Shown piece after piece: positions 219 through 61,201 of a DNA stretch of 64,000 bases (position 1 is its first letter; each line of letters begins with the position of its first letter). Made by a program: the position numbers and the translations under genes. Below the pieces are notes generated by a model. The model made no database searches and was not told the DNA's origin. It saw only the letters and a list, made by a program, of their open reading frames with translations. Source of the stretch: Vibrio fortis (lineage in GTDB: Bacteria; Pseudomonadota; Gammaproteobacteria; Enterobacterales; Vibrionaceae). Location: the NCBI RefSeq assembly GCF_000695685.1, contig NZ_JFFR01000028.1:62001-126000 (forward strand). The letters are read 5' to 3'.

Positions 219-476
219 ATGGCACACAAAAAAGCTGGCGGTTCTACTCGTAACGGCCGCGATTCAGAAAGCAAACGTCTTGGTGTAAAGCGTTTCGGTG
301 GTGAATCTGTTCTTGCAGGTAACATCATCGTTCGTCAACGTGGTACTAAGTTCCACGCTGGTACTAACGTAGGTATCGGTAAAGACCACACTCTTTTCGC
401 TCTTACTGAAGGTAAAGTGAAATTTGAAGTGAAAGGTCCTAAAAACCGTAAATTCGTTAGCATCGATTCTGAGTAA
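219..476 (+). CDS. rpmA: 50S ribosomal protein L27
   Basis: Ribosomal protein L27 (85 residues, the normal bacterial length) reaches with its N-terminal tail into the peptidyl transferase centre. The start [16 protein letters not shown] is the family signature; there is no cleavable N-terminal extension of the Firmicutes type. The ATG follows AGGAGAG at a good distance and lies 19 bp after rplU. A Rho-independent terminator follows at about 505-529, which ends the rplU-rpmA transcript before obgE. Codon use is strongly biased, as expected for a highly expressed gene. Confidence 0.98.
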
Positions 477-504
477 TTTCTCAGTCTCAAGATGAATTTA
501 AAAG

Positions 505-529
505 CCCTGCCGTTAGGCGGGGTTTTTTA
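505..529 (+). terminator. Rho-independent terminator of rplU-rpmA
   Basis: A 7-bp GC-rich stem (CCCTGCC / GGCGGGG with one G-U pair) with a GTTA loop is followed by six T residues, 28 bp after the rpmA stop. The 200 bases that follow, up to obgE, hold no other gene; they are AT-rich and probably contain the obgE promoter. Confidence 0.85.
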
Positions 530-13207: not shown

Positions 13208-13810
13208 TTACTTTAGAAAGCTAGGGATGTTTGCTTCATACGCAGAAATTTTCTCTTCGTGCTGTAGCGTTAAACCAATGTTATCTAAGCCATTTAGCAG
13301 ACAATGACGACGGAATTCGTCAATCTCAAAAGAGTACTCTTTGCCGTTAGCACGAACCACGTTTGCTTCCAGGTCTACTTCAACTTCAGCACCTTCATTC
13401 GCTTCAACGAACTGGAAGATTTCATCGACTTCTTGCTCAGTTAGGCGTACTGGCACCATCTGGTTATTGATGGAGTTACCATAGAAAATGTCGGCAAAGC
13501 TCGGTGCGATCATCGCTTTGATACCGTAATCCGCTAGTGCCCAAGGCGCGTGTTCACGTGATGAACCACAACCGAAGTTTTCACGAGCCAACAAAATAGA
13601 AGCGCCTTGGTAACGTGGTGCGTTCATTACAAACTCTGGGTTTGGTTGCTGACCAGCGTCATCTAGGAAACGCCAGTCATGGAAAAGGTGTTTACCAAAG
13701 CCCAAGCGAGATACTTTTTGTAGGAACTGCTTTGGAATGATGGCATCGGTATCAACGTTCGCAGCATCTAGAGGAACGACTAAACCAGTGTGTTGTTTGA
13801 AACCTGACAT
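13208..13810 (-). CDS. leuD: 3-isopropylmalate dehydratase small subunit
   Basis: Small subunit of isopropylmalate isomerase; with LeuC it converts 2- to 3-isopropylmalate in leucine synthesis. Length 200 residues, as in E. coli. Motifs: [13 protein letters not shown] near the start, and the swivel-domain sequence [18 protein letters not shown]. It follows leuC by 15 bp and ends the leuABCD operon; a terminator follows. Confidence 0.97.
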
Positions 13811-13825
13811 GTTAAATCCTCTAAA

Positions 13826-15238
13826 TTAAAGTTCACGAATATCGACGAAGTGGCCAGCGATCGCAGCAGCAGCGGCCATTGCCGGGCTAACTAAGTGTGT
13901 ACGACCATCACGGCCTTGGCGACCTTCGAAGTTACGGTTAGACGTTGATGCACAACGCTCTTGAGGACCTAAGCGGTCATTGTTCATTGCAAGACACATT
14001 GAACAACCAGGTAGACGCCATTCAAAGCCAGCTTCTTTAAAGATTACATCCAGCCCTTCAGCTTCAGCTTGCGCTTTAACTTGTTCAGACCCAGGAACGA
14101 TCAAAGCCTGTACATGAGATGCGACTTTGCGACCTTTCGCTACAGCTGCTGCAGCGCGCATGTCTTCGATGCGAGAGTTAGTACAAGAACCCACGAATAC
14201 TTTATCTACGTTGTAGTCAGATAGAGACTTGCCTGCTTCTAAGCCCATGTAAGCCAATGCTTTTTCAGCCGATGCTTTTTCAACAGGGTCAGAGAAGCTG
14301 TCTGGCGATGGGATAGGAGTATCAACCGAGATAACCTGGCCTGGGTTAGTACCCCAAGTCACTTGCGGTTTGATATCTGCAGCATTTAGTGTAACAACCG
14401 CATCAAACTCTGCGTCGTCATCGGTTTTCAGTGTGTTCCAGTACTCAACAGCCGCGTCAAAATCATCACCTTGTGGCGAGAATTTACGGCCCTTGATGTA
14501 TTCGTATGTGGTTTCGTCAGGAGCGATAAGACCCGCTTTGGCACCTAGTTCGATAGCCATGTTACAAACCGTCATACGACCTTCCATCGTAAGATCGGTA
14601 ATGGCTTCACCACAGAACTCAACAACATAGCCTGTACCGCCAGCAGCCGTTGTTTCACCGATGATCGCCAATACGATATCTTTAGCGGTAATGCCTGGAG
14701 CGACTTTGCCTTTTACTTCGATTTTCATGGTCTTAGCGCGCGCTTGTTTTAGCGTTTGAGTTGCTAGCACGTGCTCTACTTCTGAAGTACCGATACCAAA
14801 GGCTAGTGAACCAAATGCGCCGTGTGTCGCTGTGTGCGAGTCACCACAAACGATGGTCATACCCGGTAGCGTAATACCAAGTTCAGGACCCATTACGTGC
14901 ACAATACCTTGGTATTTGTGGTTCAAATCGTAAAGTGTAACGCCAAACTCTTCACAGTTTTTCGATAGAGTTTCCATCTGGATACGAGCCATCTCACCTG
15001 ATGCATTGATGTCTTTGGTTTGAGTCGAAACGTTGTGATCCATAGTCGCGAAAGTCTTACCAACTTGGCGAACTTTACGTCCCTTTTCACGAAGGCCATC
15101 AAAGGCTTGCGGTGATGTTACTTCGTGTACTAGGTGGCGATCGATGTATAGGATTGGGTTTTCACCCTCAGCTGCAACGGCAACGTGCGCGTCGTAGACT
15201 TTTTCGTATAAGGTTTTGGCTTGCTGGTTTGTAGACAT
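13826..15238 (-). CDS. leuC: 3-isopropylmalate dehydratase large subunit
   Basis: Large, aconitase-like subunit that carries the 4Fe-4S cluster. Length 470 residues. Cluster ligands are in VGSCTNSR and in CSMCLAMN near residue 410; [12 protein letters not shown] and the start [10 protein letters not shown] are family signatures. Third gene of the leucine operon, 99 bp after leuB; that gap holds two hairpins (15254-15306). Confidence 0.97.
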
Positions 15239-15337: not shown

Positions 15338-16438
<1,101 letters not shown>

Positions 16439-16516: not shown

Positions 16517-18064
16517 TTATACGGTTTCGATTCGTTGCTGTTTCATTTCAGCAATCGTGTCTGCACGTTGAATGCTATTGATAACATGCAGTAGCGCTTG
16601 GCCAGATGCTTCTACGATATCGGTTGAAACGCCGGTACCGTGGTATTTGCGACCTTTGTAGTTAGCGATGATGTCGGCTTGACCCAAGCCATCTTCACCT
16701 TCACCTTTTGCCGTTAGGTCGAACTTGTCTAGTACGATTTCGTAGCCAGTCAAACGGTAGATACATTGGTATAGCGCATCAACAGGGCCATTACCGACTG
16801 CCGCTTCACACTTCTCTTCATCACCACATTGCAGCTTGATGCTGGTGGTCGACATAACACTGCCAGATTGAACACTTAGGTAGTTCAACTTGTAGAAGTC
16901 ATCTTCGTCGCGAAGGTTTGCGAAGTGCATCAAAGCTTCTAAGTCGTAATCGAATACTTGGCCCTTGCGGTCTGCTAGCTTCAAGAAATCTTCGTACAAT
17001 GAATCTAGGTTGTACTCGTTTTCTTGGTAACCCATCGCATCCATGTGGCTCTTAACGGCTGCACGGCCACTGCGGCTGGTTAGGTTTAGCGCTTTATCTT
17101 TAAGACCAATCGACTCTGGAGTCATGATCTCATAGGTATTTTTGTTCTTAAGCATGCCGTCTTGGTGGATACCTGAAGAGTGGCTAAAGGCGTTCGCACC
17201 GACAATGGCTTTGTTGTCTTGGATTGGCATGTGGCATAGCTGGCTCACTAGTTTACTGGTGCGGTGGATCTCTTCATGTTTAAGACCTGTATGAACACCT
17301 AGTAACTCTTGGCGTGTCTTGATGATCATTGCGATCTCTTCAAGAGAACAGTTACCCGCACGCTCACCAATACCATTGATAGTACCTTCGACCTGACGAG
17401 CACCCGCTTGAACCGCAGCAATAGAGTTTGCGACTGACATACCTAGATCATCGTGACAGTGAACAGAGATGATTGCTTTGTCGATGTTTGGTACACGGTT
17501 GAACAATGTTTGGATAATGCCACCGAACTCATTTGGCACTGTGTAGCCCACTGTGTCTGGAATGTTGATGGTTTTCGCGCCTGCATCAATCGCGGCTTCT
17601 ACCATGCGACATAGGTTGTCAATTGGCGTACGACCTGCATCTTCACAAGAGAATTCAACATCATCAGTGTAGTTACGAGCGTGTTTTACCGCTTTAACAC
17701 CCATCTCAACCACGTCGTCGTAGCTGCGACGAAGTTTGTCTTGCACGTGAACTGTAGAAGTTGAGATAAAGGTATGAATACGAAATGCTTCAGCAACTTT
17801 TAAAGCCTCCGCAGCTGCATCAATATCTTTGGCAACGGCACGAGAAAGGGCACAAATACGGCTGTTTTTGATGTTCTTTGCGATGGTTTGCACTGATTCA
17901 AAATCACCCGGAGATGAAACTGGGAAACCAGCCTCGATAACGTCCACACCGAGTCTTTCAAGTGCATAAGCAATTTGTAACTTCTCTTTTACTGTCAGGC
18001 TTGCAGCTAGTGCCTGCTCGCCGTCTCGTAAAGTCGTATCAAAAATTATCACTTGATCGTTCAT
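16517..18064 (-). CDS. leuA: 2-isopropylmalate synthase
   Basis: First committed enzyme of leucine synthesis: condenses acetyl-CoA with 2-oxoisovalerate. Length 515 residues. TIM-barrel motifs: [17 protein letters not shown], the metal-binding [13 protein letters not shown] and [15 protein letters not shown]. The C-terminal regulatory domain (about 390-515) for leucine feedback inhibition is complete. It is the first structural gene of the operon; upstream lie the attenuator (18147-18172) and the leader peptide gene (18201-18263). AGGAAG precedes the ATG at 18064. Confidence 0.98.
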
Positions 18065-18146
18065 GGGTGCTTCCTTATATCGATATCGTATCGATTGCTA
18101 TCCAAAATATTATTGAGAATGATGTTCTTTTAATGAGCTTAGTTAC

Positions 18147-18172
18147 AAAAAAACCCGCTTAGCGCGGGTTTT
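18147..18172 (-). terminator. Attenuator of the leu operon
   Basis: On the minus strand AAAACCCGC / GCGGGTTTT with a 5-base loop is followed by a T run. It lies after the leader peptide gene and 83 bp before leuA, so it can stop transcription before the structural genes. Its 5' arm (minus-strand ACCCGCG) can also pair, with one bulge, with CGCGTGGGT at 18203-18211, which overlaps the last leader codons; that pairing would be the antiterminator. Confidence 0.85.
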
Positions 18173-18200
18173 AATATTTGTGCAGTTCTTGACCCACAAC

Positions 18201-18263
18201 TTACCCACGCGATTGGTTCACGATAAGGAGAAGTTTCAGCAGTCGAGAAAAAGAAAACGTCAT
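18201..18263 (-). CDS. leuL: leu operon leader peptide
   Basis: A 20-residue reading frame from ATG 18263 to TAA 18201 with the product MTFSFSRLLKLLLIVNQSRG. Five leucine codons in a six-codon stretch (CTG CTG AAA CTT CTC CTT) are followed by Ile and Val. It lies about 20 bases after the predicted transcription start and directly before the attenuator, the layout of ribosome-mediated attenuation known for leu operons in enterobacteria. Stalling at Leu codons would leave the last codons (18203-18211) free for antiterminator pairing; finishing translation would mask them. The ribosome-binding site is weak. Too short for usual gene callers. Confidence 0.85.
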   Translation of the reverse strand: MTFSFSRLLKLLLIVNQSRG

Positions 18264-18297
18264 GGCACAAATATCCGTAAATAAACTGTTAACACCA

Positions 18298-18326
18298 TAT
18301 TTACCGTAATTTATTCTGAGCGTCAA
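18298..18326 (-). promoter_or_regulatory. Predicted leu operon promoter
   Basis: On the minus strand TTGACG (18321-18326) is separated by 17 bases from TAAATA (18298-18303). The -35 is good, the -10 only fair. Transcription would begin near 18290, about 25 bases before the leader ATG, which fits an attenuation leader. Confidence 0.55.
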
Positions 18327-18388
18327 ACGTGAAAATCCAATATCGGCGTGCATTGTGAGCTTTTTCATTTTGTTTGTGCTGTTTTTTG

Positions 18389-18418
18389 TTTGCTTATTGG
18401 TGTTTTGTTTTGCTTATT
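18389..18418. repeat. Direct repeat in T-tract region upstream of leu promoter
   Basis: TTTGCTTATT occurs twice, at 18389-18398 and 18409-18418, exactly 20 bp apart, inside a region (18361-18420) with many T tracts on the plus strand. It lies about 65-95 bp upstream of the leu -35 box. The spacing puts both copies on nearly the same DNA face. It may bind an activator such as LeuO or Lrp or simply give curved DNA. The rest of 18330-18530 shows nothing clear. Confidence 0.4.
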
Positions 18419-18531
18419 TGCTTTCGGGTTGCGCGGTTAGTTTATCGTTTGCATGATGTTTAGGTTATAACTTTGTACTAAATCTTTTTTACCGAGTGAA
18501 TGACGGGAAAATAATTCAGGCTCAAATTTAA

Positions 18532-18547
18532 TTAATCACTTGATTAA
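18532..18547. promoter_or_regulatory. Upstream TetR-type operator
   Basis: TTAATC-ACTT-GATTAA, a 16-bp inverted repeat with the same half-sites and spacer length as the core of the operator at 18584-18621. The centres of the two are 63 bp apart, six helical turns. Likely second site for the adjacent TetR protein. Confidence 0.6.
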
Positions 18548-18583
18548 ATAGTGAGTAATTATTCTTCACCACCTGTTGGAATA

Positions 18584-18621
18584 TCACCCTATAATTAATC
18601 GTGTGATTAATTATAGGGTGA
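18584..18621. promoter_or_regulatory. TetR-type operator over the tetR promoter
   Basis: Perfect 17-bp inverted repeat: TCACCCTATAATTAATC, a GTGT spacer, then GATTAATTATAGGGTGA. It contains a perfect TATAAT -10 box (18590-18595) and ends 7 bases before the tetR start codon. A bound repressor would block RNA polymerase. Strong candidate for autoregulation of the tetR-RND operon. Confidence 0.75.
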
Positions 18622-18628
18622 CTATAGA

Positions 18629-19279
18629 GTGGGACGAAAAGTTGGACGACCGCAGAAGAATCGAGAGGTTCGGCAACTCTTGATTGAACATGCCCGGGAT
18701 CTGTTTGTCGTGCAGCCTTATGACAAGGTATCAACTCGGCTCGTCGCTGAGAGGGCTGGTGTGAACATTGCGATGATTCGCTACTACTTTGGCAATAAGG
18801 CGGGTCTGTTTGAAGCAATGTTGCGTGAGACTCTGCGGCCAATGCAACTGCAGATGCAAAAGCTCATTGATGAGAGTAACCACGATAACTTTCTCGATCT
18901 TATGCGCACCTACTATAAAGAGATGGCTAAGGTACCAAAGTTCCCTCGCTTAGTGACTCAGGTGATGAATATGCCCCCCTCAGAGGTTCAGCGAGAGCTG
19001 CTTGAGAAGGTGTTTATTGATATCGCTAAACCTGCCCAAGATGTGATATTTGAGAAGCTGATTGACCATGGTGTGCTGAGAAAAGATATGGATCCTAAGT
19101 TATGTCGGATTTCGTATATCAGCTTAATGGTATTTCCTTTTATCGCACCACCACCACTGCTGGCGCTGCATGGCATTGAGTTAAATGAAGACTTTCTTAA
19201 CCGTCTGATTGAACACAATATTCAACTAATGAGTGAGGGCTTTGTAAATCCAACAAGCTCCTCAAAACTTCAGGACTAA
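18629..19279 (+). CDS. TetR-family transcriptional regulator
   Basis: A 216-residue TetR-type repressor. The helix-turn-helix lies at about 25-60: STRLVAERAGVNIAMIRYYFG followed by NKAGLFEAML (given in two parts). The C-terminal ligand domain has no recognisable signature. The start is GTG 18629, giving MGRKVGRPQKN, an N-terminal basic arm common in this family. It is 5 bp before a membrane fusion protein and an RND pump, so it is most likely their local repressor, released by a pump substrate. Two operator-like palindromes precede it. Confidence 0.92.
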   Translation: MGRKVGRPQKNREVRQLLIEHARDLFVVQPYDKVSTRLVAERAGVNIAMIRYYFGNKAGLFEAMLRETLRPMQLQMQKLIDESNHDNFLDLMRTYYKEMAKVPKFPRLVTQVMNMPPSEVQRELLEKVFIDIAKPAQDVIFEKLIDHGVLRKDMDPKLCRISYISLMVFPFIAPPPLLALHGIELNEDFLNRLIEHNIQLMSEGFVNPTSSSKLQD

Positions 19280-19284
19280 ACAGA

Positions 19285-20610
19285 ATGAAAATAGGGAAAA
19301 AGTGGCTGTTCTTTCCAGCATTAGCGATAGGTATTGTCGGCTTAGTTGTGGCGATTAACTTCAAGCCAGACCTTCCAACCAAACCTGCTGGCGATCGAGC
19401 CCGCTTGGTAGAGGTGCAAGAACTAGAGCTTCAGTCTATGGCTCCTTTAGCGATTGGTTTTGGCAAAGTGGTGCCTAAAGTTGAGTGGAAAGCGATCGCG
19501 GAAGTTACAGGTAAGATCGTCTATCGTCACCCTGAATTAGAGAAGGGAAAAGTGATCCCTGCTGGTACCGAGGTGCTCAAGATTGATCCTCTCGACTATG
19601 AACTCAAATTGACGCAAGCTCAGGCCGACCTTAAATCTTCTCAAACCTCTTTGGCTAAGTTGAATCAAGAAGAGCAGAACCTAAACCAAACATTAAAGAT
19701 CGAGAAAAACCGTTTGGTGATCAGTAATAAAGAGCTTAAGCGTAAACAAGATCTTCGCAAGAAAGGTTTAACCTCTCAGTCTGATGTCGATCTGCAAGAG
19801 CAGAGTGCGCTTTCGCAGCGCAAACTGGTACTCGATATAGAGAACCAAATCGCGTTAATGCCAGACGAGAAGAGAGTCGCTGAGGCGGTGATCAAAGTGA
19901 ATGTTTCTAAGGTAAGGGAAGCAGAGCGATCTTTGGAAAAAACCACCATTACTCTGCCAAAAGCAATGCGTATCGCTCAGGTTGATATAGAGACCAACCA
20001 AGTGGTCAATCTTCAACAAACCATGTTCATTGCTCACGGTATTGATGTGATGGAGGTCGAAGCGCAGCTTTCAATTCACGATATGCAGACATTGGCTTCG
20101 AGCTTAGGTGAATTCACCCGTGATGAGTCTGGTATTCCTAATACCGACACCTCAGAAATCTCCGCCACTATTGAACTTAATAGCGGTAACTTGAATGCTG
20201 CGTGGCCTGCGCGGGTGGCACGTATCAGTGAAACCGTTGATGAAAACCAAGCAACAGCGGGTGTGATATTAGAAATTAAGCAAGACTACGCACAACTTGA
20301 GCCAAGTAGTCTGCCACCTTTAGTAAACGGCATGTTCGTTAAAGCCCTGATTGAAGGTGCATCTAACCTTGCTTGGGTTGTACCAGAGCGAGCACTGCAT
20401 GGCGATACCCTTTACTTAATGGATAGCGAGCAGCGCTTAAGTATGGTTCAGGTGGAAGTTCTGTATCGCCGTGATAATCAGGTCGTGGTTCGTGGAGATC
20501 TCAAACAGGGTGACAAGCTGATCCTCAATGATGTACTTCCCGCTATAGAGGGAATGCTACTGAGAGAGACCGGTGATGACTCGACCTCGATGCAGGAGAG
20601 CGATTCATGA
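19285..20610 (+). CDS. RND efflux periplasmic adaptor (membrane fusion protein)
   Basis: Periplasmic adaptor of a tripartite efflux pump, 441 residues. An N-terminal hydrophobic anchor (about 7-27, FFPALAIGIVGLVVAINF) lacks a lipobox Cys, so it stays a signal anchor. Then come a lipoyl half, a long coiled-coil hairpin (about 110-225, rich in Leu, Gln, Glu and Lys) and beta-barrel/membrane-proximal domains. The ATG follows the tetR stop by 5 bp and the stop overlaps the pump gene (ATGA). Works with the RND pump next door; an outer-membrane channel gene is absent, so TolC from elsewhere is probably shared. Confidence 0.9.
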   Translation: MKIGKKWLFFPALAIGIVGLVVAINFKPDLPTKPAGDRARLVEVQELELQSMAPLAIGFGKVVPKVEWKAIAEVTGKIVYRHPELEKGKVIPAGTEVLKIDPLDYELKLTQAQADLKSSQTSLAKLNQEEQNLNQTLKIEKNRLVISNKELKRKQDLRKKGLTSQSDVDLQEQSALSQRKLVLDIENQIALMPDEKRVAEAVIKVNVSKVREAERSLEKTTITLPKAMRIAQVDIETNQVVNLQQTMFIAHGIDVMEVEAQLSIHDMQTLASSLGEFTRDESGIPNTDTSEISATIELNSGNLNAAWPARVARISETVDENQATAGVILEIKQDYAQLEPSSLPPLVNGMFVKALIEGASNLAWVVPERALHGDTLYLMDSEQRLSMVQVEVLYRRDNQVVVRGDLKQGDKLILNDVLPAIEGMLLRETGDDSTSMQESDS

Positions 20611-23600
20611 TTAAGTTTTTCTCTCGACACCCAACAGCAGCCAATCTGCTCATGTTGGGGTTGTTGGTGCTGGGTTTGAGCTCGCTCTCCAACATTAAGC
20701 GAGAAACCTTTCCTGAGTACGATCCTCCATACATCATGGCGGGCATTGTTTACCCTGGCGCTTCACCACAAGAGGTGGAGGAGAGCTTATGTATTCGTAT
20801 GGAAGACGCCGTTGATGGTTTGGCGAATATCGAAGAAACCCAGTGTGAAGCCATTGAAGGTAGTGCGCGACTGATCCTCAAGCTCAATGAGAAAGCGGAT
20901 ATTGGCCGTATGCTGGTGGACGTACAGACTCAGATTGATTCGATTAACGACTTCCCTTCAGAGATTGAATCCCCAGTTGTTCAAGAGCTTGATTGGAATG
21001 AGCCCGTGGTTGATGTGGCAATCACTGCAGATACTACATGGCCCGAACTCAAAGCCTATGCTGAGCAGTTAAAGCGTACCATGAAGCTCGACTATGATGT
21101 CTCGCTGGTAGAAGTCAGTGGCTTTTCTGATCATCAATATCGTGTTGAGCTGGATACCCAAGCAATTCGTCAATTGGGGTTAACGGTTAATGACATCGCA
21201 GAGCAGATTGGGCGTCAGAACGTTAAGCTGCCAAGTGGTAATGTTGAAACACCTGACAAGAACTTTCTGATCCGTTTTGATGAGCGTCGAGTGACTCCAC
21301 TAGAACTCGAAAGCATCGTGGTTGGCTCGGCGCCTAACGGTTCTGTGATTCGCTTGCGAGACATTGCAGTCATCACAGACCGATTTGAACTGGATGAGCA
21401 AAAGGTACTGTTTGATGGAAAGCCATCGGCTCTGCTTAAAGTTAGTAAGAACAAAGAAGATGATGCGCTGCGTATCAAAGAGCGCGTGACTCAATTTGTA
21501 GAAGACCAAAGTGCGATAGCTCCTGATGGCGTAACGCTGCAAATGACCAATGACCTCTCTTCTGTATTGTGGGACCGTCTGACTATGATGGTGCGTAACG
21601 GTTGGCAAGGGATCGTGTTGGTGTTTGCGACGATGTGGTTGTTCTTCAGTTTACGTTACTCATTCTGGGTTGCCGCAGGCCTGCCGGTTGCCTTTCTAGG
21701 TGGCCTGTTCTTGATGGCGAACCTTGGGTTATCTATCAACATCATGTCGCTTGTTGGTTTGTTGATGGCCATCGGTATCATGATGGATGACGCCATCGTG
21801 ATCGCTGAATCGATAGCCTCACATCTCGATCGGGGGCAGAAGGTCGATGATGCTGTCTACAACGGGGTGAAAAAAGTTCTGCCTGGCGTGCTCTCCTCGT
21901 TCTTAACGACTGTGTGTATTTTTGGCAGTCTGTTGTTCTTAGACGGTGAGATGGGGGCGGTGCTTAAAGCGGTACCTCAAGTCTTGATCTTAGTACTCTC
22001 GTTGAGCTTGATTGAAGCCTTCTTGATTCTGCCCAACCACCTATCGCACTCGCTGCATAAAGAGAAACAAGAGAAACCGGCGCTACGCTTTAAAGTTGTG
22101 CTATTGGAAAAATTTGAAAACTTCCGTAATACCACTTTGATGAGCATGGTGGAGCGCGTTGTCTCGTTTCGATATGCCTTTATGGGAGGCGTAGTGAGTT
22201 TGCTGCTCCTTGCTATCGCTTTGATTGCAGGTGGTATCGTTAAATTCCAGCCTTTCCCTGAATTGGATGGCGACATTGCTGAGGCTCGCGTGATTTTGCC
22301 GCCGGGTGCATCGCTAGCGCAAACTGAACGAGTCGTGGAGCATATAGTCTCTTCTGCTGAGCGTTTGAACGTGCAATGGAGTGATGAAGTTGAGGGTGGT
22401 AACACCTTAGTTGAGCACATTACCAGTCAGTTTAATGCCAATGCGGATGCCAATGAATCAGGTCCACATTTAGCGACGGTGCGTTTGGACTTGCGTGGAG
22501 CTGAGAGCAGAAACACGGTCATCGATGACTTTATTGATGCTTGGCGTGATGACGTGGGTGAATTGGCCGATCCGATTTCTCTGGTGTTCAAGCAGCCGAC
22601 GGTGGGACCGGGTGGGCGAGCGATTGAAATTCGAGCCAAACATGATGATCTGCAAGCGCTGAAAGCGGCTTCGATTGATATCCAAGAGTATTTGAACCAG
22701 TTTGATGGTGTGCATGGCGTGCTTGATGACATGCGAATGGGTAAAGAGGAGATCTTAGTTAAGCTAAGACCGGGGGCGGAGACATACAACGTCAACGGAC
22801 AGATGATCGCGTCTCAACTGCGTGCTGCGTTCTTTGGTCAAACTGCGGATGAGATTCAGGTGGGTGTTGAGAACATCTCAATCGAAGTGCGTTTGGACAA
22901 GCAGCAAGCGGGCGATGTACAGCAGCTGGCTAACTTCCCAATCATTACCTCAGACGGTAGCCAGATTCCTCTAGCGACATTAGCGACGCTCGATTTTCAG
23001 CGAAACTATGTGCGAATCCAGCGTATTGATGGCCTGCGCACCATCAGTATCTTCGGTGATGTGAACAATAAAAAAGCCAGCTCGTCGGCCATCTTGGCGC
23101 AGTTCCAGCGCGATGAAGCGCCTAAGTTGCTAAAGAAATACCCTGGACTGCGTTTTGATTTTGAGGGTGAGGCGAAAGATGCGGCGAAGACTGGTGCCTC
23201 TATGGGTAAGGGCTTCTTACTGGGTTTGTTTGGCGTCTTTACCATATTGAGTTATCAGTTCCGCAGTTACCTAGAACCTTTCGTGGTGATGCTGGCGATA
23301 CCTTTAGCCTTTATCGGTGTTGTGGTCGGGCACTGGCTGTTGGGGCACTCCCTGAGTATGCCGAGTATGATGGGCTTTGTTTCATTAGCTGGGATCGTGG
23401 TTAACGACTCGATACTCTTGGTGCAATACATCCGGCACCATGTGGATGAGGGAGATAGCGTGCATGACTCTGTAGTGAAAGCGAGTCGTGAACGTTTCCG
23501 TGCCGTGTTCTTAACTTCGATGACTACTGCGGCAGGTCTGTTGCCACTACTCACTGAAACCAGCTTGCAGGCTCAGGTCATACAGCCGCTAGTGATCTCG

Positions 23601-23714
23601 ATTGTGTTTGGTATCTTCGCTTCGACATTACTTGTGTTGTTTATGATCCCTGCAGCCTACGCGATTTTGGCTGATTTTGGATTGGTTAAGAAGCATGAGC
23701 CCCTCACTGTTTAG
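20607..23714 (+). CDS. RND efflux pump, inner-membrane transporter
   Basis: Proton-driven RND transporter, 1035 residues, AcrB/MexB-like layout with 12 membrane segments and two large periplasmic loops (about 35-330 and 560-860). The proton-relay region is seen as GIMMDDAIVIAESI in segment 4, and the second half has SLAGIVVNDSILLVQYI. The N-terminal FFSRHPTAANLLMLGLLVLG and KRETFPEY match the subgroup close to the uncharacterised RND pumps of Vibrio and Pseudomonas rather than AcrB itself. Substrate unknown: drugs, bile acids or fatty acids are possible. Translationally coupled to the adaptor; a terminator follows. Confidence 0.93.
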   Translation: MIKFFSRHPTAANLLMLGLLVLGLSSLSNIKRETFPEYDPPYIMAGIVYPGASPQEVEESLCIRMEDAVDGLANIEETQCEAIEGSARLILKLNEKADIGRMLVDVQTQIDSINDFPSEIESPVVQELDWNEPVVDVAITADTTWPELKAYAEQLKRTMKLDYDVSLVEVSGFSDHQYRVELDTQAIRQLGLTVNDIAEQIGRQNVKLPSGNVETPDKNFLIRFDERRVTPLELESIVVGSAPNGSVIRLRDIAVITDRFELDEQKVLFDGKPSALLKVSKNKEDDALRIKERVTQFVEDQSAIAPDGVTLQMTNDLSSVLWDRLTMMVRNGWQGIVLVFATMWLFFSLRYSFWVAAGLPVAFLGGLFLMANLGLSINIMSLVGLLMAIGIMMDDAIVIAESIASHLDRGQKVDDAVYNGVKKVLPGVLSSFLTTVCIFGSLLFLDGEMGAVLKAVPQVLILVLSLSLIEAFLILPNHLSHSLHKEKQEKPALRFKVVLLEKFENFRNTTLMSMVERVVSFRYAFMGGVVSLLLLAIALIAGGIVKFQPFPELDGDIAEARVILPPGASLAQTERVVEHIVSSAERLNVQWSDEVEGGNTLVEHITSQFNANADANESGPHLATVRLDLRGAESRNTVIDDFIDAWRDDVGELADPISLVFKQPTVGPGGRAIEIRAKHDDLQALKAASIDIQEYLNQFDGVHGVLDDMRMGKEEILVKLRPGAETYNVNGQMIASQLRAAFFGQTADEIQVGVENISIEVRLDKQQAGDVQQLANFPIITSDGSQIPLATLATLDFQRNYVRIQRIDGLRTISIFGDVNNKKASSSAILAQFQRDEAPKLLKKYPGLRFDFEGEAKDAAKTGASMGKGFLLGLFGVFTILSYQFRSYLEPFVVMLAIPLAFIGVVVGHWLLGHSLSMPSMMGFVSLAGIVVNDSILLVQYIRHHVDEGDSVHDSVVKASRERFRAVFLTSMTTAAGLLPLLTETSLQAQVIQPLVISIVFGIFASTLLVLFMIPAAYAILADFGLVKKHEPLTV

Positions 23715-29133: not shown

Positions 29134-29226
29134 ATGATAATAAAACGTTACAGTTGTTTCGTACCACTGCTTATTGTTATCACGACGAGCAGTCATAGCC
29201 GAAAAAGTGGAAGTATTTCGAATTAG
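29134..29226 (+). CDS. Candidate ilvIH leader peptide
   Basis: A 30-residue frame from ATG 29134 to TAG 29224-29226 containing [13 protein letters not shown]: five branched-chain codons in a row (CTG CTT ATT GTT ATC) then two Thr, 9 of 30 residues being Ile, Leu or Val. It ends 79 bp before ilvI. Between them a hairpin ACCAG-CCTTC / GAAGG-CTGGT (about 29255-29293) abuts the ilvI ribosome-binding site but has no T run. AGAAGGG lies a little far upstream of the ATG. Alternatively GATAAT at 29136-29141 is a -10 box and there is no peptide. Weak but suggestive. Confidence 0.35.
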
Positions 29227-29305
29227 GCTACGAATAAGACCTAGACTATGTAAAAACCAGCCCCTTCGGCTTACCCAACTGAAGGAAACTGGTAAGGAGA
29301 GCAAT

Positions 29306-31045
29306 ATGACAACTAAGCCAGAGTGCGCCCAATTATCCGGCGCGGAAATGGTAGTTCAGTCCCTAATTGAAGAAGGGGTTGAGCAGATCTTTGGTTATCC
29401 AGGCGGTTCCGTTTTGGATATCTACGATGCCCTACACGCAAAAACAGACAAGATTAAACACGTATTAGTGCGCCACGAGCAAGCAGCGACGCATATGGCC
29501 GATGGCTACACGCGTTCAACTGGTAAGCCTGGTGTAGTACTAGTATGTTCAGGTCCTGGCGCGACTAATACCGTAACGGGTATTGCGACAGCGTACATGG
29601 ACTCGATTCCAATGATCGTTATTTCGGGTAACGTACCGAACAACTTGATTGGTAATGACGCATTCCAAGAGTGTGATATCGTAGGTGTATCTCGTCCAAT
29701 CGTAAAACACAGCTTCTTAGTAAAGAAAGCTGAAGACATCCCAGAGATCGTAAAAAAGGCCTTTTATATTTCGACCACAGGTCGACCTGGCCCAGTTGTG
29801 ATTGACCTTCCTAAAGATGTACTTAATCCACAAATTAAGCTGCCGTACGAATACCCAGAAACGATCAAAATGCGTTCGTACAACCCAACGGTAACAGGCC
29901 ACAAAGGACAAATTAAGAAAGCACTTAAGGCACTTCTAGAAGCGAAGAAGCCGGTTCTTTATGTTGGTGGTGGTGCGGTTATCTCGGAAGCTGATAAACA
30001 GTTGCTTAAGCTTGCCGAGGCACTAAATCTACCTGTTGTTAGTACACTTATGGGATTGGGTGCCTTCCCGGGCACGCATAAAAACTCGCTAGGCATGCTT
30101 GGTATGCACGGCTTATACGAAGCCAATATGGCAATGCATAACGCAGACCTTATTTTTGGTGTTGGTGTTCGTTTTGATGATCGTACGACCAATAACCTAG
30201 AGAAGTACTGTCCAAACGCGAAGATCATGCACATCGATATCGATCCATCATCGATCTCTAAGAACGTGAAAGTGGATCTACCGATCGTAGGCTCTGCTGA
30301 GCGCGTGCTTGAGAGCATGGTGAACCTGCTTATTGAGCAAGGTGGAACCAACGATGCAGAAGCCTTGGATGCATGGTGGGCAGAAATTAAAGTATGGCAA
30401 GACCGTAAGTGTCTCGCTTACGATAAATCGCCTGAGCGCATCAAACCTCAACAGGTTATCGAAACTCTACACAAAGTGACCAATGGCGATGCGTATGTTG
30501 CTTCTGATGTTGGTCAGCACCAAATGTTTGCCGCGCTTTACTATCCATTTAATAAACCACGCCGTTGGATCAATTCTGGTGGCCTTGGCACCATGGGCTT
30601 TGGTTTACCTGCGGGTATGGGCGTTAAGTTCGCTAAACCGGATGAAGAAGTGGTCGTTGTAACAGGCGATGGCAGTATTCAGATGAATATCCAAGAGCTG
30701 TCAACGGCACTGCAATACAACATCCCGGTGAAGATCATTAATTTGAATAACCGTTTCTTAGGCATGGTAAAACAGTGGCAAGACATTGTTTACCAAGGTC
30801 GTCACTCAAACTCATACATGGACTCTGTGCCAGACTTTGCGGCTATCGCGGAAGCGTATGGTCACGTAGGTATGCGTATCTCTTCTCCTGATGAACTTGA
30901 ATCAGGCTTAGAGAAAGCACTGGCAATGAAAGACCGCCTGGTATTCGTCGACATTAGTGTTGATGATACAGAGCACGTATACCCAATGCAGATTAAAGGC
31001 GAGGGTATGGATAACATGTGGCTAAGCAAAACGGAGAGAACATAG
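29306..31045 (+). CDS. ilvI: Acetolactate synthase III, large subunit
   Basis: ThDP-dependent catalytic subunit of acetohydroxyacid synthase, first common step of valine, leucine and isoleucine synthesis. Length 579 residues from ATG 29306, which has GTAAGGAGAG upstream; an open frame from a TTG at 29174 is rejected. Motifs: catalytic Glu in [16 protein letters not shown] region, and ThDP motif [14 protein letters not shown] to INLNN near 460-490. The small subunit ilvH starts 1 bp after its stop. Resembles the valine-sensitive IlvIH isozyme by neighbour leuO. Confidence 0.95.
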
Positions 31046-31046
31046 T

Positions 31047-31541
31047 ATGAGACACATTATTTCGCTATTAATGGAAAACCAACCAGGTGCCTTGTCTCGA
31101 GTGGTTGGCTTGTTTTCTCAACGTGGTTACAACATTGAATCGCTGAACGTGTCGCCGACAGATGATCCGACGCTTTCACGTCTGAACGTAACGACCAACT
31201 CAGATGAGATGCAACTAGAGCAGATCCAGAAGCAACTGCATAAGCTGATTGATGTGCTTAAAGTTCAAGAAGTATCAGAGCTTGATCATATTGAGCGTGA
31301 GCTACTAATGGTTAAGGTTCGCGCGAGCGGTTTTGCGCGTGCAGAGGTTAAACGTACTGCTGATATCTTCCGTGGTCAGATCGTTGACGTAACCGCCTCT
31401 CAATACACAGTGCAGATGGCAGGCACCAGTGAGAAGCTCGATGCGTTTATTCAAGCATTATCAGAAGTAACGGAAGTGCTTGAAGTGGCACGCAGCGGCG
31501 TGGTTGGTATTGCTCGAGGAGAGCGCTCTCTAAAAGCTTAA
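31047..31541 (+). CDS. ilvH: Acetolactate synthase III, small regulatory subunit
   Basis: Regulatory subunit (164 residues; E. coli 163) that binds valine and activates IlvI. The N-terminal ACT domain starts RHIISLLMENQPGALSRVVG, with GYNIESLNVSPT and SRLNV; the second ACT-like domain follows from about 80. The stop of ilvI (TAG) and the ATG are one base apart, so synthesis is coupled. A terminator follows at 31558. Confidence 0.96.
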   Translation: MRHIISLLMENQPGALSRVVGLFSQRGYNIESLNVSPTDDPTLSRLNVTTNSDEMQLEQIQKQLHKLIDVLKVQEVSELDHIERELLMVKVRASGFARAEVKRTADIFRGQIVDVTASQYTVQMAGTSEKLDAFIQALSEVTEVLEVARSGVVGIARGERSLKA

Positions 31542-31557
31542 GAAAATTGTATGATAG

Positions 31558-31584
31558 AAAGCCGCATTAAGTGCGGCTTTTTTA
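31558..31584 (+). terminator. Terminator of ilvIH
   Basis: Perfect 9-bp stem AAAGCCGCA / TGCGGCTTT, a TTAAG loop and a T run, 16 bp after ilvH. Confidence 0.9.
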
Positions 31585-31644
31585 TTTTGTTAATTTATAA
31601 CAATGATATAATTCTCGCCATATTTACCCTATTTTGAGCAATTA

Positions 31645-33528
31645 ATGAGAAATAAAAAAACAATCGCCACGCTTCTCGTTATTTGCGTCACCTTTTGTGC
31701 AGCTATCGCTCTGTACTACCAGCAACGCTATCAAGACGTCAAAAAGCAGAGTTATCAACGCACTGCAAAACAGGCTCTTCATCAACTTGTGTACGCCGAG
31801 CGCGACTACAATGTGTTGAAAGACCAATTGGTCTCTATGATGCAACTACTCAGCCACAGTCAAAGCTTGGTTGATTTTGCGACATCTCCTTCTGTTGAAA
31901 ATAAGAACCTGCTGGAAGAGGTTTGGCAGTCGGTACTGGTCAATCAAAGATGGTATACCCAGATTCATCTGTTGGATATTGATGGCCATGAGAAGGTCAG
32001 AGTCAATTACTCCTCAAGAACAGGTGTTGTTACGCTGCCGAACGAGCTCCAAGATAAATCCAATTACGGTTATTTTCACTATGCGCAGACCCTGGATGCT
32101 GAAGAGATTGGCGGGTGGGGTATTGAGCTGGAATCCGAATATGGTGAGCTGACTTATCCATATACTCCCGTATTGAGAGTGATCACGCCTGTACAAACAC
32201 CAGAGCGTCGCGTCGGCTACTTAGTGATAAACCTCGATGTATGGGGATTAGCGTCACGCTTAAACTTCTCTCCTGATTTTGATTTTCGTGCTGAAGTGGT
32301 GAACCAATATGGTTACTACATTGCGAGCCAAAACAAGAGCAAGCTGTTTGGTGATTCGATCCCTGAGCGTAAAGGGTTCAACCTTTCACAAATTGCCCCA
32401 AAAACTTGGCAGGCGATCTCTTCTGAACGCATGGGTTACATGTTTGAAGACGGCAATCTATTTGCCTTCAACACCGTTGATCTTGCGCAGAAACAAAAGA
32501 TGCACTTAGTGATTCAGTTGAGCTCAGAGCAGTTATTAGAGAGAGCGGAGCGCGATCTCAATGACTTAGCGCAAGAGCAGTTGATCGTGTTCTTCACCGT
32601 AATGGTGTTTGCCTTCCCGCTGGCTTATCTCGTGACGCATTATCAAAGGCGCAGTCTAGAGAGCAAATTGGCTCGAGCAGCGCTGAATGGTATGTCTGCG
32701 GTGATGATCTCTGATAAACATCACCGCACCATCATGACCAACAATGAGTTTGAGAACATGACTGGTTACAGCAAGTCGCAGGTTGATGGTAAAAACGCCC
32801 TGCAGCTGCTGCTAGAGAATAGCGAACAACTTCATACTGCAGAAACCATCTGGACACATCTCGAAGAGAATGATTTGTGGGAAGGTGAGGTGAGCTGCAA
32901 GAGCAAACTTCGAATCCCTTTCACTGCGATCATGCGAGTGCAAGCCGTGAAGAGTAATTCAGGTAAAGTGAGCTACTACATCACGTCGCTGGTGGACATT
33001 ACGGTGCGTAAAGAGTTAGAAGTACGATTGCGTATTCTCAGTGAGCGAGATTCGTTGAGTAAATTATGGAATCGTCGCAAATTTGAAGAGCAGTTGGCGC
33101 AGTATTCACGAATGGTGGAGCGTTTCCCTAACGAATCTCAAGTGTGCTTAGCGTTGATCGACATCGATAACTTCAAACGCATTAATGATGAACTCGGCCA
33201 TGACGAGGGCGATCGCGTGATTGCTAGAGTGGCTGCGATCCTTCAAGAAAGCTTGAGAACCACAGACTTTGTCGCGCGTGTTGGCGGTGAAGAGTTTGCT
33301 ATCTTAATGCCTCATACTTCGTTAGCAGAAGCGAGAAGAGTGTTGGATCGCCTACGCATTGAAGTACAACTCTCTGGCGGAACGAAAGTGACGGTCAGTA
33401 TCGGCTATACCGATCTTACTGGTAACAGCACCCACTCCTATAAGTGTGCGGATATTGGTCTTTATGAATCTAAGTCCTCTGGTCGCAACACCATCTCTAT
33501 CTGTACAAGTCAGGCGGACGTTGCCTAG
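31645..33528 (+). CDS. Membrane sensor diguanylate cyclase (Cache-PAS-GGDEF)
   Basis: Makes cyclic di-GMP from two GTP. 627 residues: a membrane segment at about 7-24, a large periplasmic sensor (about 25-305, double-Cache-like by size and by FSPDFDFRAEVVNQYGYYIAS), a second segment at about 312-332, a PAS domain at about 345-455 (MISDKHHRTIMTNNEFENMTGYS in outline) and a GGDEF domain at about 470-620. The active site is GGEEF near 547, intact, and RTTD five residues before it is a complete inhibitory I-site. No EAL domain. Stands alone between ilvH and a small ORF; signal unknown. Confidence 0.93.
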   Translation: MRNKKTIATLLVICVTFCAAIALYYQQRYQDVKKQSYQRTAKQALHQLVYAERDYNVLKDQLVSMMQLLSHSQSLVDFATSPSVENKNLLEEVWQSVLVNQRWYTQIHLLDIDGHEKVRVNYSSRTGVVTLPNELQDKSNYGYFHYAQTLDAEEIGGWGIELESEYGELTYPYTPVLRVITPVQTPERRVGYLVINLDVWGLASRLNFSPDFDFRAEVVNQYGYYIASQNKSKLFGDSIPERKGFNLSQIAPKTWQAISSERMGYMFEDGNLFAFNTVDLAQKQKMHLVIQLSSEQLLERAERDLNDLAQEQLIVFFTVMVFAFPLAYLVTHYQRRSLESKLARAALNGMSAVMISDKHHRTIMTNNEFENMTGYSKSQVDGKNALQLLLENSEQLHTAETIWTHLEENDLWEGEVSCKSKLRIPFTAIMRVQAVKSNSGKVSYYITSLVDITVRKELEVRLRILSERDSLSKLWNRRKFEEQLAQYSRMVERFPNESQVCLALIDIDNFKRINDELGHDEGDRVIARVAAILQESLRTTDFVARVGGEEFAILMPHTSLAEARRVLDRLRIEVQLSGGTKVTVSIGYTDLTGNSTHSYKCADIGLYESKSSGRNTISICTSQADVA

Positions 33529-50915: not shown

Positions 50916-51719
50916 ATGAGTTATTTTGAAGCGTTTATTTTGGCGTTGGTGCAAGGCTTTACCGAATTTTTGCCGATCTCAAGCTCTGCACACTTGATCC
51001 TTCCTTCAGCTGTACTTGGCTGGGAAGACCAAGGTTTGGCATTTGATGTGGCGGTACACGTTGGTACATTGGCGGCAGTAGTTATCTATTTCCGCAAAGA
51101 GGTTATCTCACTACTGAATGCGTTTTTTGGTTCAGTGTTCAAAGGTGATCGAAGCAAAGAAGCGAAACTGGCTTGGATGATCATCTTGGCGACTATTCCT
51201 GCTTGTGTGTTTGGCCTGTTGATGAAAGACATCATTGAGCTTTACCTGCGTAGCGCGTGGGTTATCGCGACCACGACCATCGTGTTTGGTTTGTTGTTGT
51301 GGTGGGTAGATAAGAACTCAGCACTGCGTGACGATGAGTATCAAGCAGGCTGGAAGAAGGCGCTATTCATTGGTTTGGCGCAAGCGATGGCGATGATCCC
51401 AGGTACGTCTCGCTCTGGCGCAACTATTACTGCAGCGCTGTACCTTGGTTTTACTCGTGAAGCGGCAGCTCGTTTCTCTTTCTTAATGTCGATTCCTATT
51501 ATCACGCTAGCGGGCGGCTACTTAGGCCTTAAGCTAGTCACTAGCGGTGATCCAATCCACGTTGGTACTTTGTTGACGGGTATTGTGGTCTCTTTCATCA
51601 GCGCTTATATCTGCATTCACTTCTTCTTGAAGTTAATCTCTCGCATGGGTATGACGCCATTTGTTATCTACCGCTTGATTCTAGGTTGTGGTCTGTTTGC
51701 TTTCTTGATGATGCAATAA
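50916..51719 (+). CDS. uppP: Undecaprenyl-diphosphate phosphatase UppP
   Basis: Recycles the lipid carrier for cell-wall synthesis by removing phosphate from undecaprenyl pyrophosphate; overproduction gives bacitracin resistance (bacA). 267 residues, about eight membrane segments. Motifs: [20 protein letters not shown] with the catalytic Glu, [11 protein letters not shown], and [12 protein letters not shown]. 16 bp after folK, so co-transcribed. Not of the PAP2 family. Confidence 0.97.
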
Positions 51720-51745
51720 GCCCCAACTCAAACTTCAAAACGCAC

Positions 51746-51775
51746 AAAGCCCGCGGATTCAGCGGGCTTTGTTGT
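51746..51775. terminator. Terminator between uppP and cca
   Basis: Perfect 9-bp stem AAAGCCCGC / GCGGGCTTT with a 7-base loop and TTGTTG after; 26 bp after uppP. Confidence 0.85.
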
Positions 51776-60462: not shown

Positions 60463-61201
60463 TCTGCTGTTCTAGCTTATCTAACCGTTCAAGGATCTGT
60501 TGCTGTTGTTCCAGAATAAGGTCGAGCTTTTTGTCCTTGTTCTCCAGCTTCTGATTCTGTAAATCGGTCGGTTCTGTGATTAGTGAAGTCACTAATCCTG
60601 AGATCATACCGAATACACCCACACCACAAATGATCACTAAAGAGGCAACCAATTTTCCTGAGTTTGTCACTGGGTAGTGATCGCCATAGCCTACGGTACT
60701 AATCGTCACAAACGCCCACCACAATGCGTCGTGGCCAGTGGTAATGTTCGCCCCTGGCTGTTTATGCTCAAGCAGCAGAATCGTGCCAGCACCAATGGTG
60801 AGCAATAGCACTAGCAATAAAATGATGGAGGCGAGTGTGGTTTCTTTGCGATTGCGAAACAGCTCTCTAAAAATACGTTTGCTTGAGCGTAAAACCAAAA
60901 TAACCCGTAATATCTGAAAGATACGTGCGAAGCGTAGTGGTTCTATCATCGGGATACTGGCAAGGAAATCTATCCAGTGGATCTTTAAATATGATGTTTT
61001 ACTTTCCGCTCGAAATAGATCAATAGTGAGCTGCAGAAGAAAAACACTACAGATTACAAAATCGAGGCCGATAAGAACTTGTTTAGATTCGTTATCGATA
61101 GGTGCGAACAATAAGCCAGAGATCACAAATAACGCTAAGAAAGAGAGAATCAGTGATAATAAGCTCATTGGCTTGGGTGTGTCTTTGGTACTATCTAACA
61201 T
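60452..61201 (-). CDS. Voltage-gated-like potassium channel
   Basis: A 249-residue ion channel of the 6-TM type: about four voltage-sensor segments (positive fourth segment [20 protein letters not shown]), then segment 5, pore helix with the selectivity filter TVGYGD near 172, and segment 6. A short cytoplasmic coiled coil at the end ([18 protein letters not shown]) probably drives tetramer formation. No RCK domain. Convergent with ygiF, divergent from the chemoreceptor. Confidence 0.9.

Follow-up and report, generated by a model that had tools for sequence, protein, structure and literature searches.

The leuABCD operon of Vibrio fortis is in all likelihood preceded by a ribosome-mediated transcription attenuator responding to charged leucine tRNA, as judged from the anatomy of the region and from comparison with relatives. 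We use "the window" for the whole stretch of DNA analyzed, 64,000 nucleotides in length. An earlier note on this DNA had read the region as a leucine attenuator, a reading that gained support from the conservation of the Leu codons and the terminator in 29 relatives and from a covariance model of the element, termed R1, which matches 224 of the 227 genus genomes searched. The attenuator is an ordinary, well-conserved member of a long-known kind, and it settles the likely control of leuABCD in the genus. The features of the region, all on the minus strand, are as follows:

18321-18326, minus strand: -35 hexamer TTGACG (TTGAC[GC] in 30/30 sequences)
18298-18303, minus strand: -10 hexamer TAAATA with CGG directly 5', spaced 17 nt from the -35 hexamer
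18201-18263, minus strand: putative leader peptide ORF, 20 aa, MTFSFSRLLKLLLIVNQSRG, stop codon TAA at 18203-18201
18225-18242, minus strand: regulatory codons CTG CTG AAA CTT CTC CTT (five Leu)
18231-18235, minus strand: protector 5' outer arm AACUU, partner AAGUU at 18202-18198
18218-18228, minus strand: protector 5' inner arm, with CCU (18228-18226) pairing GGG (18206-18204) and CGUGA (18222-18218) pairing UCGCG (18212-18208)
18203-18210, minus strand: region 2, antiterminator 5' arm GCGUGGGU, 8/8 pairs with region 3
18178-18199, minus strand: hairpin UUGUG...CACAA between regions 2 and 3, 5 pairs in the window
18162-18169, minus strand: region 3, 5' terminator arm ACCCGCGC, common to antiterminator and terminator
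18147-18172, minus strand: intrinsic terminator AAAACCCGC-GCTAA-GCGGGTTTT plus TTT
16517-18064, minus strand: leuA, 2-isopropylmalate synthase, first gene of the operon (NF002084, 975.6 bits, cut-off 748)
15338-16429, minus strand: leuB (TIGR00169, 542.5 bits, cut-off 353.2)
13826-15238, minus strand: leuC (TIGR00170, 879.7 bits, cut-off 560.25)
13208-13810, minus strand: leuD (TIGR00171, 326.6 bits, cut-off 116.25)

The genes leuA, leuB, leuC and leuD are consecutive on one strand, each scoring above the cut-off of its NCBIfam model, and 82 nt lie between the end of the terminator and the leuA ATG (18064). Within this interval, at 18079-18095, we noticed the near-palindrome ATCGATACGATATCGAT, which is also found in L004 and L006 and is broken in other relatives; it is probably non-functional. 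The upstream neighbor of the leader is a divergent TetR-type regulator gene. It belongs to a divergent cluster (18629-23714, plus strand) that also encodes an HlyD-type membrane-fusion protein and a large protein resembling, by eye, an RND efflux transporter. Farther along the same window as leuABCD (29174-31541, plus strand), two ORFs resemble by eye ilvI and ilvH of acetolactate synthase.

For the comparison, relatives were searched with the first 55 residues of LeuA, giving matches in 58 of 61 genomes, and the loci are the best 30 of these 58, the window's own included. The resulting alignment (A2) has 30 rows with 24 distinct leader-to-terminator sequences and 45 invariant columns. Two entries, L001 and L005, correspond to the locus of the window itself; of these, L005 was excluded, and L001 represents the window in the shuffle and promoter analyses. 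The duplicates L004, L006, L007, L008, L009 and L011 were left out of a further alignment (A3) and of R1, and L027, which ends within the T-run in A2, is whole in A3.

The 20-codon ORF with five Leu in six codons that had been pointed out from the sequence is present at 18263-18201 on the minus strand. By chance, an ORF of 8-45 codons holding five or more Leu among six codons arises in 14 of 5,000 dinucleotide shuffles of the 564-nt intergenic region; the strong evidence for the leader is its conservation rather than this figure. All 30 sequences, the window and its 29 relatives, encode an LLxLLLIV leader (in the form LQLSLLLIV in L031) that starts about 174-205 nt 5' of leuA, with an ATG start codon in 29/30 rows and GTG in one. 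Leu9, Leu11, Leu12 and Leu13 are CTN codons in every row and Leu8 is in 29/30, with a variable third base; all four CTN codons are used at Leu8, Leu9 and Leu11. Codon 10, which separates the Leu blocks, varies among Lys, Ser, Asn, Gly, Arg and Asp. The identity of the Leu codons is thus under selection, and the leader is very probably translated, even if its Shine-Dalgarno sequence, ACGGAU, looks weak by eye. Leu12 is CTC in 29/30 rows, and CTC is the rarest Leu codon of the window (8.5% of 1,581 Leu codons in 39 mechanically chosen ORFs); we draw no conclusion from this, because Leu12 also lies inside the protector stem.

A promoter-like -35/-10 pair was likewise claimed earlier, and the sigma70-like pair in question (TTGACG-17-TAAATA, 18326-18298) takes a form that recurs in all 30 sequences. 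The pattern search, with a pattern fitted to the very upstream sequences then searched, recovered in each of them TTGAC[GC] and, 17 nt farther on (18 nt for L023), a -10 element of the form CGGTA...T, which reads TACTAAT in 20/30 rows. The window's own pair has 8 of 12 matches and stays under the cut-off of 9 of a generic promoter scan, and the promoter-like site of L023 stands about 110 nt 5' of the leader start, farther than in the other rows. Transcription start downstream of 18263 would contradict an attenuator; the conserved promoter is instead found 5' of the leader ORF, and from its spacing the start would be expected near 18290.

The terminator before leuA, previously described as a textbook one, is present: a 9-bp stem with a 5-nt loop occupies 18172-18150, with seven T at 18153-18147. 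A simple terminator scan returned only the plus-strand copy of this symmetric stem, and we think that the minus-strand terminator is absent from the scan because T residues are consumed where A-U pairs lengthen the stem. Upstream of it, GCGUGGGU (18210-18203) is complementary to ACCCGCGC (18169-18162) over 8 bp. The pairing of the last leader codons with the 5' terminator arm had been placed at 18203-18211; the 8 bp are real, but the exact arm is 18210-18203, which takes in the third base of the Ser codon, the two final codons and the opening base of the stop codon (18203). Region 3 can pair with either region 2 or the 3' terminator arm, so the two folds have one arm in common and are mutually exclusive. 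Six pairs form an antiterminator core that is intact in 30/30 rows, and the two outer pairs are found in part of the rows only.

Two further elements, missing from the earlier note, are a predicted protector stem, which would complete the classical layout, and a hairpin that separates arm 2 from arm 3. The outer protector stem AACUU/AAGUU joins Leu-codon bases to the stop-codon region, and its five pairs are present in nine of the ten rows that make up the window's clade. In the other 20 rows, an outer protector displaced by one base (AGCCU/AGGCU type) is complete in 8 and retains at least 4 of 5 pairs in 16; L019 and L025 have one pair of it left.

On this anatomy, RNA polymerase would start near 18290, followed by a ribosome translating the 20 codons of the leader. 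When leucine abounds, this ribosome would reach the UAA stop codon and cover region 2, leaving region 3 to pair with region 4, so that the terminator would end the transcript at about 18147. When leucine is short, it would instead stall on the Leu codons with the protector stem opened and region 2 free; region 2 would then pair with region 3, no terminator would form and leuABCD would be transcribed.

We modeled the effect of the ribosome by keeping 28 nt unpaired (the first P-site base with the 12 nt upstream and the 15 nt downstream of it) and by folding nascent RNA that ends just after region 3 with each codon in turn in the A site. In these nascent folds the window's antiterminator has a probability of 0.96-0.98 with Leu codons in the A site, 0.98 at Ile14, 0.97 at Val15 and 0.00 from Asn16 to the stop. 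The antiterminator had been said to be masked once the leader is fully translated, and the model bears this out, with a probability of 0.00 at the stop codon of the window and 0.000 in all 30 rows; this zero arises because the modeled ribosome covers region 2. The lowest value at any Leu codon is at least 0.9 in 27/30 rows of the same nascent model, the exceptions being L019 (0.64), L029 (0.81) and L027, in which two extra Leu codons outside the cluster give 0.01 and 0.00 and the cluster itself at least 0.95. For the full-length transcript of the window at equilibrium, the terminator is favored in every state except a stall at Leu11, where the antiterminator reaches 0.68 (0.11 or less at the other four Leu codons). 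Since equilibrium favors the terminator, the switch must act during transcription. Classical attenuators do act during transcription, and this outcome is thus the expected one. Finally, the protector stem is conserved over the rows, yet in the window the antiterminator is the preferred fold of ribosome-free nascent RNA (0.91 versus 0.05 for the protector), which suggests that, under this model, the protector is weak in the window's clade.

The modeled values at Ile14 and Val15 bear on a broader specificity, in which the leader would sense all three branched-chain amino acids, with ribosomes stalled at its Ile-Val codons likewise allowing the antiterminator to form. We regard this as possible but unlikely. 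The ATC GTG codons are invariant in 30/30 rows, as such a role would have it, but the same bases build the invariant protector stem CGUG/CGCG, which could explain their invariance alone; the window has five Leu codons but a single codon each for Ile and Val, and in some rows a ribosome at Val fails to protect the antiterminator (0.06 in L025 and 0.15 in L029). Quite doubtful, to us, is the full combination in which the element would be a compact Vibrionaceae variant of the leu attenuator outside public thresholds, with an invariant Leu-Leu-Leu-Ile-Val run that would read the whole branched-chain pool, an antiterminator arm overlapping the stop codon and, in the window's clade, a leader that would default to read-through when untranslated.

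In the alignment, the structure combining terminator, protector and middle hairpin has standard pairs in 93.1% of cells, versus 33-62% after displacing the 3' partners by 1-3 columns, a control biased toward this structure because it was derived from the aligned rows themselves. The terminator state shows 10 double-change cells against a shuffled mean of 4.3, a number reached by none of 500 shuffles, and its covariation score was reached by 4/500; 9 of the 10 cells fall at one terminator pair, where A-U and G-C replace each other. Two of the five measures for the terminator state are not above shuffles, namely double-change pairs (319/500) and further pair types (497/500). For the antiterminator helix with the middle hairpin, covariation does not exceed that of shuffles (1 double-change cell versus a mean of 1.9) and the paired percentage was equalled by 144/500. 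The antiterminator lacks independent covariation support because its core columns are nearly invariant. An alignment had been proposed as a check on the attenuator: it upheld the synonymous third-base changes in the Leu codons and yielded double changes in the terminator, but antiterminator covariation stayed within the range of shuffles.

In 4/30 rows (L016, L017, L018 and L031) the stop codon has moved upstream, right after LLLIVT, and the downstream UCGCGCGGGU is retained. Because UCGCGCGGGU outlasts the moved stop, the last leader codons appear conserved for RNA pairing and not for the peptide. These four loci amount to a natural separation of peptide constraint from RNA constraint. Their retention of UCGCGCGGGU is also what one would see if the region were a riboswitch or a protein-binding leader with the peptide unused. 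That is very improbable, however, given that start codon, frame and Leu codons are kept through synonymous third-base changes and that no other Rfam family reaches its threshold within 17000-19500.

The distribution of the attenuator was followed with R1, the covariance model built from 24 of the 30 sequences. Its 224 genus matches have E-values of 1e-5 or better, one of them, in G220, being weak (E 2.3e-6, in a genome 80% complete). The three genomes in which R1 found no match are G026 and G154 (1.0 and 1.1 Mb) and G141 (79% complete, 1,370 contigs), and G026 has no LeuA match either. In the 26 genomes compared, out of 36 genus genomes with LeuA, the R1 match ends 51-82 nt 5' of leuA on the same strand. 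Among named loci, two vibrios score 142 and 130 bits (the former being V. tubiashii L032, whose LeuA start is 95% identical to that of the window), two Photobacterium 80 and 71, six enterobacterial loci (L039-L043 and L070) 32-55, three Aeromonas 31-37 and Thalassotalea 28. As the wrong strand of the same loci gives up to 28.6 bits, the score in Thalassotalea does not rise above background and those of Aeromonas do so only slightly. ORFs with at least 4 Leu in six codons occur ahead of leuA in all 14 named loci, a loose criterion that more distant loci satisfy as well. In a sample of the order, R1 matches at least once at E 0.001 in 109/197 genomes, but many of these matches are weak and are probably terminators hit by chance.

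Within the window, weak R1 matches at 382-528 (plus strand) and 31554-31670 (minus strand) look by eye like ordinary gene-end terminators and were rejected as candidates; two matches at 51651-51773 and 60991-61084 are weaker still. R1 can land on stems of that kind, and a strong terminator is present ahead of leuA. That the stem there is a plain terminator shielding leuABCD from upstream transcription beside a coincidental Leu-rich ORF is nevertheless extremely improbable, as the upstream gene is divergent, a promoter-like pair stands 5' of the ORF, and conservation extends jointly to the ORF, its Leu codons and the antiterminator arm.

A possible leuA leader of another type was observed in many other gammaproteobacteria, where a frame ending Leu-Leu-Pro-stop lies within a conserved hairpin of the CTGCCC-TGAG-GGGCAG type, with the stop codon in the loop and no T-run directly 3'. 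This frame end occurs in 12 of 67 loci (L045-L111), namely L049, L051, L053, L056, L059, L061, L064, L067, L072, L084, L100 and L104. An 18-nt pattern made from them gave 14 matches in 274 class-level genomes, whereas its reversal gave 3. On the leuA strand, 11 of these 14 matches are located some 110-200 nt 5' of the gene, one of them, in L154, having the same frame as L084. The frame is also seen at about position 1500 of L151 and of L153-L162. Rfam yielded no family at threshold in any of the 12 loci, and a literature search found nothing on a Leu-Leu-Pro-stop leuA leader. The frame could be a leucine-responsive leader of another build. TnaC is known for arrest at Pro-stop, and a similar arrest may perhaps take place here.

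As for known systems, leu attenuators were reportedly described by Vitreschak et al. in 2004 in several gammaproteobacteria, Vibrio among them, and the Vibrio attenuator was probably already predicted in that work. The excerpts returned by our literature search contained no description of a Vibrio leu attenuator, which is not proof of absence. For Shewanella leuA, the text of PMC2659441 describes an attenuator with a Leu-rich leader peptide, terminator and antiterminator, in which leader codons together with half of the antiterminator form an anti-antiterminator, and cites Vitreschak et al. 2004 for it. By that description, the mechanism in this other genus is the same as the one proposed for the window.

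In the window's own genome, the R1 search of the order sample gave one other match (32.2 bits), on an attenuator-like leader ahead of an ilvG-like acetolactate synthase gene (L149:1891-1989, minus strand; contig C1:56390-56488), in which, by eye, an ORF rich in mixed Ile, Val and Leu codons is followed by a terminator; its operon differs from leuABCD. Rfam Rev39_5p_UTR is under threshold at this leader (32.5 of 88 bits).

The Leu_leader family of Rfam (RF00512), suggested earlier as a check, was the right family to consult, but it gives 22.4 bits on the window's leader, under its gathering threshold of 50. All 16 loci of the genus and Photobacterium that were put to Rfam fall under the cut-off too (25.8-43.3 bits), as do both Aeromonas loci, and the positive controls reach 126.9 bits (Citrobacter) and 105.2 (Cedecea). 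Above the cut-off, RF00512 was found in 0/118 genus genomes, in 1/14 named control genomes (E. coli being among three with any match) and in 5/119 genomes of a sample of the order. Similarly, the window's leader peptide matches no Pfam or NCBIfam family, whereas the Citrobacter peptide matches in both libraries. There is accordingly a gap in coverage: Rfam, Pfam and NCBIfam models recognize enterobacterial leaders and miss the element of 224/227 genus genomes, and pipelines relying on public models would presumably leave both the leader gene and the RNA switch unannotated. Extending these models would be a simple gain, the biology itself being unsurprising.

Compared with the enterobacterial leu attenuator (RF00512; PF08054; NF007397/NF011328), the element of the window has the same operon, a leader with Leu codons, the same predicted logic of protector, antiterminator and terminator and the same position, and RF00512 matches it over the same span, although below threshold. 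It differs in that its leader has 20 codons instead of 28 and reads LLxLLLIV...SRG instead of GLLLLNA..., and its 117 nt stand against 148 model positions of RF00512. The two are very probably homologous.
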